A DNA stretch of 64,000 bases from Kineosporiaceae bacterium SCSIO 59966 (lineage in GTDB: Bacteria; Actinomycetota; Actinomycetes; Actinomycetales; SCSIO-59966). Both the position numbers and the translations under genes were made by a program. Shown here one piece after another: positions 39,748 through 44,138 of this stretch (its first letter is position 1; every line of letters starts with the position of its first letter). The notes below the pieces were generated by a model that saw only the letters and a list, made by a program, of their open reading frames with translations, was not told the origin of the DNA and searched no databases. Location: positions 1,178,001 to 1,242,000 of the forward strand of contig CP052876.1 of the NCBI GenBank assembly GCA_020881835.1, read 5' to 3'.

Positions 39748-39816
39748 CGGGACGCGGCGTCCGACGGGCCTACCATGGACGACGAACCCGTTCCCGCGCG
39801 TCCGAAGAGGTCGAGA

Positions 39817-40740
39817 GTGTCCACCGAGCAGCAGCAGCCCGCCAGCACCGAGTCCGGCGCCGCCGTCGGCACCGCCCGCGTCAAGCGCGGGATGGCGGAG
39901 ATGCTCAAGGGTGGCGTCATCATGGACGTCGTCACCCCCGAGCAGGCAAAGATCGCCGAGGACGCCGGTGCGGTCGCCGTGATGGCGCTCGAGCGGGTGC
40001 CGGCGGACATCCGGGCCCAGGGCGGTGTCGCCCGGATGAGCGACCCGGACCTCATCGACGGGATCATCGAGGCGGTGTCGATCCCGGTCATGGCCAAGGT
40101 CCGGATCGGTCACTTCGTCGAGGCGCAGGTGCTGCAGAGCCTCGGCGTCGACTACGTGGACGAGTCCGAGGTTCTCACCCCGGCCGACTACGAGCACCAC
40201 ATCGACAAGTGGCAGTTCACCGTCCCGTTCGTGTGCGGTGCGACGAGCCTCGGTGAGGCCCTGCGCCGGATCACCGAGGGTGCGGCGATGATCCGCTCCA
40301 AGGGCGAGGCCGGCACCGGTGACGTCTCCAACGCCACGGGGCACATGCGCACGATCCGCGCCGAGATCAACCGGCTGCGGTCGATGAGCCACGACGAGCT
40401 GTTCGTGGCGGCCAAGGAGCTGCAGGCGCCCTACGAGCTGGTCAAGGAGGTCGCCGAGGCCGGCCGGCTGCCCGTCGTCCTGTTCACCGCCGGCGGCATC
40501 GCCACCCCCGCCGACGCGGCGATGATGATGCAGCTCGGCGCCGAGGGCGTCTTCGTCGGCTCCGGCATCTTCAAGTCCGGCAACCCCGCCGAGCGGGCCG
40601 CCGCGATCGTCAAGGCCACCACGTTCTACGACGACCCGGACGTCGTCGCCAAGGTGTCCCGCGGCCTCGGCGAGGCGATGGTCGGGATCAACGTGGACGC
40701 CGTCCCGGAGCCGCACCGCCTCGCCCAGCGTGGCTGGTGA
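39817..40740 (+). CDS. pdxS: Pyridoxal 5'-phosphate synthase lyase subunit
   Basis: A 307-residue PdxS (Pdx1/SnzP), which builds PLP from ribose 5-phosphate, glyceraldehyde 3-phosphate and ammonia supplied by PdxT. Key residues are visible: Asp37 in IMDVV, Lys94 in MAKVRIGHF (imine with the sugar) and Lys162 in [16 protein letters not shown]. The start chosen is the GTG at 39817 with AAGAGG upstream; an ATG at 39775 overlaps a TACCAT -10 candidate and is less likely. Unlike usual, pdxT is 2.8 kb downstream. Confidence 0.95.
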
Positions 40741-40814
40741 CCCCTTCTCTGCGTAACCCGCTCCCCGTGGTAACCCCCTGCCCGTGGTAACCCCCCCGTG
40801 GTAGACCCCCTCCC

Positions 40815-40941
40815 CGTGATCATGCAATCCCGCCACCCTGCACGCCCCTAGCGCCCGCTTCGCCACAGCATTCGGGGCTCTCCAGAATGCTGGGTTGTCG
40901 GCACGACACGCGGCGTGTTGCGCCAACAACCCAGCATTCTG
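40815..40941. repeat. Composite intergenic repeat, site E (left arm plus long hairpin)
   Basis: The left-arm motif GTGATCATGCAATCCCGCC starts at 40816. The hairpin at 40883-40941 is the longest of the family: CAGAATGCTGGGTTGT (40883-40898) pairs perfectly with ACAACCCAGCATTCTG (40926-40941), a 16-bp stem, with inner CGACACGC and GGCGTGTTG. No right arm follows; a GGGGCGAG-rich tract (40946-40988) runs into kynU. It lies between convergent pdxS and kynU. Confidence 0.9.
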
Positions 40942-40945
40942 CGAG

Positions 40946-40988
40946 GGGTGGGGGGCGAGGGGCGAGGGGGGGCGAGGGGCGAGGGGCG
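40946..40988 (+). repeat. GGGGCGAG short tandem repeat
   Basis: Five near-copies of the octamer GGGGCGAG (with extra G in places) fill the last 40 bp before the kynU stop. The plus strand is G-rich and could form a quadruplex, as at the corresponding edge of repeat site A. Confidence 0.6.
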
Positions 40989-42242
40989 TCAGGTGACGGT
41001 GGCGCGGTGGGCGAACCGCGGGTCGGTGTGCTCACCGGCCGCCAGCACGTCCCGCAAAGCAGTGGCCGCGGCCAGGCAGTCGCCGTGCGTGACGTACAGC
41101 GGCGCGAACCCCAGCCGGACGACGTCCGGCTCGCGGAAGTCTCCGACGACCCCGCGGGCGATGAGCGCCTGGACCACCGCGTAGGCGTCCGGGTGGCGCA
41201 GGGACACCTGTGAGCCGCGGCGCCCGGCGTCCCGGGGGGTCAGCACCTCGACGTCCGGGACGAGCGCGTCCAGGCACTCGAGGAAGAACGACGTCAGCGA
41301 CACCGACTGCTGCCGCACGTCCGCCGTCGCCAGCCCGTCGAAGGCGGTGAGCGCCGCCTCCAGTGCCAGCAGTGACAGCAGCGGGGGAGTGCCCACCCGC
41401 CCGCGCGCCACACCCTCGGCCGGCTCGTAGTCGCTGACCATCGCGAAGGGCCGGGCGTGCCCGTTCCAGCCCGACAGCGGCTGGTCGAAGGCGTCCTGGT
41501 GGCGGGTGGCGACGTAGAGGAACGCCGGGGCGCCCGGACCGCCGTTGAGGTACTTGTAGCCGCAACCGACGGCGAGGTCGACACCGTCGGCGTCCAGGTG
41601 CACCTCCAGCGCGCCGGCGGAGTGGCACAGGTCCCACATCGCCAGGGCCCCGACGTCGTGCGCGGCCCGCGTCAGCGCCGGCACGTCCCACAGCTGACCG
41701 GTCCGGTAGTCCACGTGGGAGAGCGCGACGAGTGCCACCTGCTCCCCGCGGTCGGCGAGCACCGCCGGCACGTCCGGCGGGGAGGCGAGCACGACGTCCA
41801 GGTCGGCGAGCCGGGCTGCGCCCTGCAGCACGTACAGGTCGGTGGGAAAGGAGCCCGGGTCGGTGACGACGACCCGTCGCCCGGGGCGCATCCGAGCTGC
41901 GGCGACGTAGCACTTGAAGAGGTTGACCGAGGTGGAGTCGGTGACGACGACCTGACCGGGGGCGGCGCCGACGAGGCGTCCGACGGCGTCCCCGACCCGG
42001 GTCGGGGCCCCCCACCAGTCCGCGGTGTTCCAGGAGGCGATGAGGTCGTGGCCCCACTGTCGGCGGACGACGTCCTCGACGGCCGCGGGGACGGCGCGGG
42101 GCAGGGCGCCCAGGGAGTTGCCGTCGAGGTAGACGACACCGTCGGGCAGCTCGAAGCGGTCCCGGACGCCGGCGAGCGGACCGGCGGCGTCCAGCTCGGC
42201 GGCGCGGCGGGCCAGGTGCTGGGGTGTGCTCACCGGCCGCAC
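40989..42242 (-). CDS. kynU: Kynureninase
   Basis: A 417-residue fold-type I PLP enzyme that splits kynurenine to anthranilate and alanine (or 3-hydroxykynurenine to 3-hydroxyanthranilate). Family blocks include [40 protein letters not shown] and the PLP lysine Lys230 in [12 protein letters not shown]. No tryptophan dioxygenase or formamidase is in the window. The GTG at 42242 is used, GTG 42233 is also possible. Divergent from the leader peptide and oxygenase. Confidence 0.93.
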
Positions 42243-42313
42243 CCTAGACGAGCCTCTTCAAGGGGTCAGTGGTCGTCGAGCAGGGAACGGTCGTCGACCT
42301 GGAAACGGTCCTC

Positions 42314-42319
42314 TAGACT
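42314..42319 (+). promoter_or_regulatory. -10 element for the leader peptide transcript
   Basis: TAGACT (TANNNT) ends 7 nt before the ATG at 42327, so transcription should begin at or next to the start codon, giving a leaderless mRNA for the leader peptide. Confidence 0.55.
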
Positions 42320-42326
42320 CCCCGCC

Positions 42327-42398
42327 ATGTCCTCGGTGCTGGTGCGCCGTGTCCACGTGGACCTCCTGCGCACCAACAGCAGTCTGTGTCGCGGCTGA
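42327..42398 (+). CDS. Putative 23-residue leader peptide
   Basis: A 24-codon frame coding MSSVLVRRVHVDLLRTNSSL followed by CRG. The VRRVHVDLLR...SSLCR pattern matches the actinobacterial putative leader peptides I know from upstream of sulfur- and cysteine-related genes, where translation through the C-terminal Cys/Arg codons is thought to control the downstream gene. It lies 66 nt before the oxygenase start. A CCCGC/GCGGG stem (about 42400-42420) follows its stop at once. Function is inferred by resemblance. Confidence 0.7.
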   Translation: MSSVLVRRVHVDLLRTNSSLCRG

Positions 42399-42464
42399 GC
42401 CCGCTCCGACACCCGGCGGGTCGTGAGCCCGCACAGCGCCGACCCCATGAGGATCACAGACACC

Positions 42465-43487
42465 ATGACTGCTGCCTCTTTGCCTGTTCTCGACCTCTCG
42501 CTGGCGAACAGTCCCGCGACCGCCCCGGCCTTCCGTGACGCACTGCGCGAGGCCACGCACGACTACGGCTTCTTCTACCTCGTCGGCCACGGCGCCGAAC
42601 CCGCCCTCATCCGCCGGGTCATCACCGTCGCCCGGGAGTTCTTCGCCCTCCCCGAGGAGGAGAAGCTCGCCATCGAGAACACCCACAGCCCACACTTCCG
42701 CGGCTACACGCGCGTCGGCGGCGAGCGCACTCAGGGCAAGGTCGACTGGCGCGAGCAGATCGACGTCGGACCCGAGCGGGACCCGCTCCCGACCGGGCCG
42801 GAGGACCCCGCCTACCACGTGCTCGAGGGTCCGAACCTGTGGCCGGCACGACTGCCTCAGCTTCGCGAGGTCCTCACCAGCTGGACCGACGCCATGGGGC
42901 GCGTCGCCGACCAGCTCATGCGCGAGTGGGCCGAGTCCCTCGGCCAGGACCGCGACGTCTTCGACCCCGCCTTCGGCGAGGCGCCCGGGTGGCTGTGCAA
43001 GGTGGTGCGCTACCCAGGTCGCGAGCACGGAGGCACCGACCAGGGCGTGGGGTGGCACAACGACTTCGGGGTGCTCACCCTCCTGCTCGTGGAGCCGGGC
43101 AAGGCCGGCCTGCAGGTGGAGCACGACGGCGCTCCGCTCGACGTGCCGCCGGTCGACGGCGCCCTGGTGGTCAACATCGGTGAGATGCTCGAGTGGGCCA
43201 CCGACGGCTACCTCAGGGCCACCAAGCACCGGGTGCTCGCCCCGGAGCCGGGCACCGACCGGATCTCGGTGCCGTACTTCCACAACCCAGCGCTGGACGC
43301 CGTCTTCCCCAAGCTCGTACTTCCCGCACAGCTGGCGGCGCAGGCGCCAGGGGTCACGACAGACCCCGACGACCAGGAGATCTACGGGGTCTACGGCTAC
43401 AACGCGCTGAAGAGCCGCGTGCGCGCCCACCCCAACGTGGTCGAGGCCCACCACCCGCACCTGCGGCCGAAGCCGACGGGGGCCTGA
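42465..43487 (+). CDS. 2-oxoglutarate/Fe(II) oxygenase, isopenicillin N synthase-like
   Basis: A 340-residue oxygenase with the DIOX_N region (LPVLDLSLA, YGFFYLVGHG) and a double-stranded beta-helix core. The iron triad is His198 and Asp200 in GWHNDFGVLT with His255 in ATKHRVLAP; Arg266 in RISVPYF would bind 2-oxoglutarate. The substrate is not predictable; despite the family name it need not act in beta-lactam synthesis. The ATG at 42465 is chosen (GAGGA site upstream); 42447 is possible. A leader peptide precedes it. Confidence 0.9.
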   Translation: MTAASLPVLDLSLANSPATAPAFRDALREATHDYGFFYLVGHGAEPALIRRVITVAREFFALPEEEKLAIENTHSPHFRGYTRVGGERTQGKVDWREQIDVGPERDPLPTGPEDPAYHVLEGPNLWPARLPQLREVLTSWTDAMGRVADQLMREWAESLGQDRDVFDPAFGEAPGWLCKVVRYPGREHGGTDQGVGWHNDFGVLTLLLVEPGKAGLQVEHDGAPLDVPPVDGALVVNIGEMLEWATDGYLRATKHRVLAPEPGTDRISVPYFHNPALDAVFPKLVLPAQLAAQAPGVTTDPDDQEIYGVYGYNALKSRVRAHPNVVEAHHPHLRPKPTGA

Positions 43488-43500
43488 GCGTCGCGCCGCC

Positions 43501-43506
43501 TAGGCT
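43501..43506 (+). promoter_or_regulatory. Candidate -10 element for a leaderless pdxT mRNA
   Basis: TAGGCT ends 8 nt before the pdxT GTG with no ribosome site between them. It lies 13 nt after the oxygenase stop, so pdxT has its own promoter here. Confidence 0.5.
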
Positions 43507-43514
43507 GTTCCGAC

Positions 43515-44138
43515 GTGACCTCTTCCCGCCGAACCCGCCCGACCGTCGGCGTCCTGGCCCTGCAGGGCGACGTCCGTGAGCACGTGCGGACGCTGACCGA
43601 ACTGGGCGCGGACGCCGTCCCGGTGCGCCGGCCCGGCGAGCTCGACGCCGTCGACGCGCTCGTACTGCCCGGCGGGGAGTCCACGACGATCGACAAGCTC
43701 GCCCGTGCCTTCGACCTCGCCGAGCCGCTGCGCCGCCGGATCGCCGACGGCATGCCGGTCTACGGCTCGTGCGCCGGGATGATCCTGCTCGCCGACCGGC
43801 TCGTCGACGCCATCGACGGCCAGCAGACCTTCGGCGGCCTCGACGTGCTCGTGCGGCGCAACGCCTTCGGCCGCCAGGTCGAGTCCTTCGAGGAGGATCT
43901 CGACGTCGTCGGCGTGGCAGGCGGCCCGGTCCGGGCCGTGTTCATCCGCGCCCCGTGGGTCGAGGAGGCCGGTCCGGACGTCGAGGTGCTGGCGAGCGTC
44001 CGCACCGGACCGGCCGCCGGGCGGGTGGTCGCCGTCCGGCAGGGTGGGCTGCTCGCCACGTCCTTCCATCCCGAGGTGACCGGCGACCTGCGGGTGCACG
44101 CGCTGTTCGTCGACATGGTCCGCGAGCGACTCGAGTGA
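43515..44138 (+). CDS. pdxT: Pyridoxal 5'-phosphate synthase glutaminase subunit
   Basis: A 207-residue class I glutaminase that feeds ammonia to PdxS. The catalytic triad is Cys86 (YGSCAGMIL), His185 and Glu187 ([10 protein letters not shown]); [12 protein letters not shown] is the oxyanion-strand block. GTG start. The pdxS partner lies upstream beyond kynU and the oxygenase. Confidence 0.95.

Follow-up and report, generated by a model that had tools for sequence, protein, structure and literature searches.

We suggest that the oxygenase gene of the 64 kb stretch of DNA analysed here (the window) is probably controlled by a leaderless, cysteine-sensing leader encoded upstream of it, and since such a leader stands before the gene, that the oxygenase is part of cysteine supply. 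The suggestion is built on sequence comparison along several lines: the conserved leader-oxygenase pair, the replacement of this leader by poly-Cys leaders in another ortholog clade, the cysteine genes neighbouring the oxygenase, and leaders of the same family before CysD, SsuE, TauD and transporter genes.

Leader ORF and oxygenase of the window

The leader ORF has 23 codons plus TGA (MSSVLVRRVHVDLLRTNSSLCRG; 42327..42398, plus strand, ATG at 42327). The 23-aa peptide matched NCBIfam NF042934 (cis_reg_atten, putative leader peptide), a family named from sequence, over residues 4-21 with 29.6 bits, above the curated cut-off of 27; the genome scan gave 27.4 bits. The motif occurs once in the six frames of the window, and the whole genome has NF042934 matches at E <= 0.01 in two places only. 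The ORF lies on the same strand as the metabolic gene behind it, and the distance to that gene is 66 nt, as originally predicted (stop at 42398, oxygenase ATG at 42465). The -10-like box TAGACT was also found where the original prediction had placed it, at 42314..42319 on the plus strand, 7 nt ahead of the leader ATG, suggesting the leaderless arrangement of mycobacterial-type attenuators. We found no sigma-70 consensus promoter in 42200-42520. According to a script that permitted several starts per leader, a TANNNT box stands 6-9 nt before a start in 17/17 re-scored leaders, compared with 39/1720 background starts.

A chance ORF behind a chance -10 box is extremely improbable; the frame is short and has a single Cys codon, as such an ORF might, but its family score is over the cut-off, and both position and box are kept in 17 other leaders. 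Conservation in relatives rules out a chance origin, and this conservation before the oxygenase, together with the NF042934 match, bears out the reading of the short frame as a leader peptide. The second leader-like ORF of the genome (L004 1468-1560, G000:C1 about 2678886-2678978; MRICQCQRQNQVQRRHVDLLRTCTALCRLG) precedes a symporter distantly like DctA/GltP, possibly serving cystine uptake.

The presumed target (42465..43487, plus strand) encodes a protein of 340 aa, with a Shine-Dalgarno-like GAGGA at 42449..42453 (plus strand), 11 nt ahead of its ATG; GAAGGA stands at the corresponding place in the loci of the three closest orthologs (L090-L092). The protein is predicted to be an Fe(II)/2OG-dependent oxygenase of the DIOX_N/2OG-FeII_Oxy type, both domains being present by Pfam (PF14226, 3.6e-35; PF03171, 2.7e-19) and the HxD...H and RxS residues (H198, D200, H255, R266, S268) being invariant in 13 orthologs. 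The TauD Pfam domain gave no match in the protein, which sets it apart from the TauD/TfdA sulfonate dioxygenases. The AlphaFold2 model, made with a 13-sequence alignment, has a pLDDT of 86.1, and the nearest solved structures by sequence and fold are 9ovh, an ancestral ethylene-forming enzyme, and 6jyv, PaIPNS of Pseudomonas aeruginosa. These closest known proteins are only about 35% identical to the window oxygenase, so their substrates cannot be transferred to it. PaIPNS binds 2OG and has little ethylene-forming activity and no known function (PMC12329707). The excerpted text of a sulfur-starvation proteomics report on R. qingshengii does not name an oxygenase of the window type (PMC8557817).

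Leaders before the oxygenase in relatives

Contigs were searched with an alignment of 13 orthologs, and 80 loci were kept; a class-wide search for the oxygenase gave a match in 54/394 genomes. The closest orthologs, in Actinotalea ferrariae (78%), Ornithinimicrobium cavernae (76%) and O. murale (74%), are all preceded by the same kind of leader (L090-L092), and the fourth-closest, in Actinotalea sp. M2MS4P-6 (71%), has no such leader. The L091 and L092 leaders encode identical peptides, with four synonymous codon differences between them. Between the window and L090 leaders there are five synonymous and five amino-acid codon differences, and the latter count against the cysteine-sensing reading. 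Leaders such as MLSLVRRRHVDYVRVTSMGCRR precede 14 of the 18 oxygenase loci of a further family confined to one genus, probably Streptomyces.

We detected a recognised leader before 32 of the 154 oxygenases in the tree: 18 of the HVD type, 12 poly-Cys, one poly-Cys before an operon and one ending in CC. The HVD-type leaders fall in two clades, the presumed Streptomyces family (14/18 rows) and the rows around the window (4/5), and the poly-Cys rows fall in one. The other 122 oxygenases, many of them in Microbacterium, lack any recognised leader in the 400 nt upstream (one of them, L033, has less than 200 nt of upstream sequence), which also speaks against the cysteine-sensing reading. As a separate observation, the motif GTAAY-N4-7-(G/C)(C/A)AAYA occurs within 150 nt upstream at 29/153 oxygenase loci (e.g., L112, L139 and L141), in no leader-labelled locus and in 0/153 control stretches (antisense or -400..-250); its appearance is that of an operator taking the leader's place.

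The leader alignment of 40 rows gave 37 distinct leaders after three duplicates were dropped. All 37 have Cys nine residues after the fixed Asp (D+9), and the codon is TGT in 36/37; the corresponding codon in the window, the presumed sensing codon, is Cys21 TGT at 42387..42389 (plus strand), nine residues past Asp12. The Cys codons of seven window genes are 0 TGT and 10 TGC, and those of ORFs neighbouring L090-L169 are 156 TGT and 727 TGC. His at D-2 is kept in 34/37 leaders and Ser at D+6 in 33/37, and the Arg at D-4 is encoded by CGC (18), CGT (7), CGG (7) and CGA (5). Leaders entered the alignment only if they had Arg or Cys at D+3 and some Cys after the motif, so these columns are partly forced, and loci L039-L067 were chosen by family score and are hence biased toward the motif; His at D-2, Ser at D+6, the position of the Cys at exactly D+9 and its TGT codon were not forced by the criteria.

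A codon counter would not need so much of a motif, which makes an arrest peptide a serious rival: the RRxHVD[LYF]xRxxSxxC nascent chain itself would stall the ribosome, rather than a mere shortage of Cys-tRNA, perhaps triggered by a small molecule, cysteine or a different one, in the exit tunnel. The motif is kept with exact D-to-C spacing while the Arg codons vary freely, and it is common to leaders before unrelated genes. The invariant cysteine codon is equally compatible with codon sensing, and orthologs of the poly-Cys clade have short leaders without the motif. On balance we regard the arrest peptide as possible but doubtful, and cysteine sensing at the level of Cys-tRNA is the preferred reading.

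The poly-Cys leaders were recognised as upstream ORFs with at least three Cys in the last eight codons, present at 10/80 orthologs (e.g., MSIRLCRCCCR and STFLCSCCRR) and rare in the controls (4/938 flank windows, 2/80 antisense, a mean of 0.2/80 in 50 shuffles). Two more, L015 and L072, were found among 51 other loci (50 with more than 250 nt upstream). L010, the nearest order-level ortholog, has an upstream ORF ending in STSTCCG behind TAGCGT. It was also observed that in L108, L159 and L166 the stretch of Cys codons, CTGCTGTCG, has a full complement downstream, CGACAGCAG (CGACCGCAG in L117); these are candidate attenuator pairings upstream of the oxygenase, with duplex energies near those of shuffles.

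Cysteine genes and host sulfur metabolism

Neighbouring genes were counted as evidence only if confirmed by Pfam, NCBIfam or tblastn. Before the oxygenase, L093 carries a cystathionine beta-synthase (CBS; TIGR01137, 585 bits, cut-off 510) and a cystathionine gamma-synthase whose gene overlaps the oxygenase frame (NF005871, 592 bits, cut-off 513). A pair of the same two genes adjoins the oxygenase in L147 (Aurantimicrobium; tblastn), and the poly-Cys leader ...RLCCCR stands ahead of this gene group. The cysK and cysE genes precede the oxygenase in four Cryobacterium loci (tblastn, with NCBIfam on L104), and a Cys/Met PLP-enzyme relative lies directly 3' of it in the distant locus L197. Such adjacencies are few, yet they arose in separate lineages. 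The CBS and cysK loci of the window's own genome have no cysteine leader, a point against the cysteine-sensing reading.

In the window, a kynureninase gene lies upstream of the leader on the other strand. By eye, the oxygenase and kynureninase genes stand between pdxS-like (39775-40740) and pdxT-like (43515-44138) genes, together spanning 39775-44138, and a pdxH-like gene lies downstream in 7/24 oxygenase loci. A link to PLP is possible.

The leader family has other targets elsewhere. Across 198 genomes of the order, 56 had an NF042934 match at E <= 0.01, 31 of them over the cut-off. Pfam results for the downstream ORF cover 10 of 31 NF042934 loci (29 from the order scan and two from the window's genome): three sodium:dicarboxylate symporters, two SBP_bac_5 proteins, and one each of TauD, FMN reductase, FAD-NAD(P)-binding protein, PAPS-reductase-type protein (CysD) and NlpA. 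With NCBIfam, CysD and SsuE scored above their cut-offs and taurine dioxygenase below. The symporter behind the second leader-like ORF of the window's genome (L004) belongs to the same broad kind as the symporters in this list.

Neither PF01507 nor PF01077 matched in the one-contig genome of the window; the same searches were positive in 14/14 and 11/14 control genomes, respectively. With no sulfate adenylyltransferase/PAPS-reductase or sulfite-reductase domain detectable, the organism is probably dependent on reduced or organic sulfur. Its genome encodes a CBS that shares 69% identity with the L093 enzyme, a cysK-cysE pair and several Cys/Met PLP enzymes. Among 39 genomes, PF01077 was missing in 10/16 with a leader and 7/23 without one, and absences are weak in the several that are drafts or MAGs.

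These data bear on sulfonate scavenging, in which the oxygenase would be a functional analogue of TauD, induced on sulfur starvation and freeing sulfite. Elsewhere, TauD and SsuE genes do stand behind leaders of this family, and a sulfite-reductase-like protein is present in four genomes with poly-Cys leaders. The oxygenase is of another domain type than TauD, however, and beside the ten leader genomes lacking the sulfite/nitrite reductase domain, two further ones have it only in NirB-sized frames of about 900 aa. Because sulfate- and sulfite-reduction proteins were undetected in the window genome, a sulfite-releasing, TauD-like role is unlikely there, and we consider sulfonate scavenging improbable as an explanation of the pair. 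For the same reason, the absence of detectable sulfate- or sulfite-reduction genes, the substrate is most likely a reduced organosulfur compound rather than a sulfonate from which sulfite is released.

Proposed control and known attenuators

We propose that transcription would start at or adjoining the leader AUG and that ribosomes would translate the leader. When charged Cys-tRNA is scarce, they would pause at the Cys21 UGU, with the nascent RRxHVDLLR motif probably helping the pause. The pause would raise oxygenase expression, a direction taken by analogy from the mycobacterial poly-Cys leaders, and it may be relayed to the oxygenase by coupling, Rho or other RNA structure.

The spacer between the leader stop and the oxygenase start (42399..42464, plus strand, 66 nt) folds no more strongly than shuffles, and no intrinsic terminator was found in 42200-42520, so that the region does not have the form of a classical transcription attenuator. 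The small stem that the original prediction had noticed after the leader stop does fold, but at chance level, with 119/200 shuffles equal or stronger (z 0.36). The comparisons argue for the translation-dependent control of the oxygenase by cysteine or sulfur that had been proposed; a role of the stem in it found no support. Pairing between the Cys codons and the spacer was at chance in a set of 22 made up of HVD-type leaders and L010 (mean z -0.14), and the mean z was -0.71 for 11 poly-Cys leaders. With the ribosome masked, the predicted freedom of the Shine-Dalgarno sequence did not change consistently between the stalled and the terminating state. An anti-Shine-Dalgarno pairing seen by eye in L091 was dropped, as the accessibility modelling gave it no general support.

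That no RNA switch was found counts against cysteine sensing and suits a leader that acts by ribosome delivery (translational coupling) only, which the short spacer and the weak Shine-Dalgarno context in the window would also fit. Coupling alone leaves the fixed Cys codon, the poly-Cys replacement and the cysteine-gene neighbourhoods unexplained, and we find it an improbable account of the leader. Cysteine sensing remains our preferred reading.

In mycobacteria, leaderless ORFs with contiguous Cys codons mediate cysteine-dependent attenuation of downstream genes (PMC9031893, PMC13236596), and the poly-Cys leaderless ORFs of M. smegmatis are described there, citing Canestrari 2020, as cysteine-responsive attenuators. 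Leaderless Cys uORFs of mycobacteria were reported by Shell 2015 (PMC4633059), and candidate Cys leaders by Seliverstov 2005 (PMC1262725). The window leader resembles the mycobacterial poly-Cys uORFs in being leaderless by its promoter box, in having a Cys codon near the stop and in standing upstream of a gene related, in our reading, to sulfur and cysteine. It differs in its long RRxHVDLLR motif, in its target, an oxygenase, and in having one Cys codon and no contiguous run, which is also a point against cysteine sensing; because it lacks the run, it is classed as working like a poly-Cys attenuator and not as one. Cys-rich leader peptides are also described by NF042936 (Ms4527A) and NF042933 (Ms5788A): four leaders of the presumed Streptomyces family (f37) were scanned and matched Ms4527A with 26-33 bits, under its 45-bit cut-off, and the window leader matched NF042934 only. 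In a literature search that covered few subscription papers, we found no publication testing this leader type or its pairing with the oxygenase, and the link of the oxygenase to cysteine supply appears to be new.

More speculatively, the enzyme may cleave a C-S bond oxidatively and leave the sulfur reduced, for instance by hydroxylation of the carbon beside a thioether with release of a thiol, feeding CBS/cystathionine lyase or CysK. The leader may be a hybrid sensor: its conserved nascent peptide would place the ribosome such that a single UGU codon reads Cys-tRNA charging. The oxygenase would then serve cysteine supply in actinobacteria unable to reduce sulfate. We regard this combined proposal as rather unlikely.

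Taken as proposed, the regulation is a strong clue to the function of an oxygenase whose structural relative PaIPNS has none assigned. The fixed TGT and its exact spacing offer a clear test of amino-acid sensing by a single codon plus nascent peptide. With no sulfate or sulfite reduction detectable in the window genome, the chemistry comes down to reduced organosulfur compounds, which makes for a short, direct substrate screen. Cysteine leaders of two kinds, and cysteine genes in several neighbourhoods, would tie a widespread actinobacterial oxygenase to cysteine supply.
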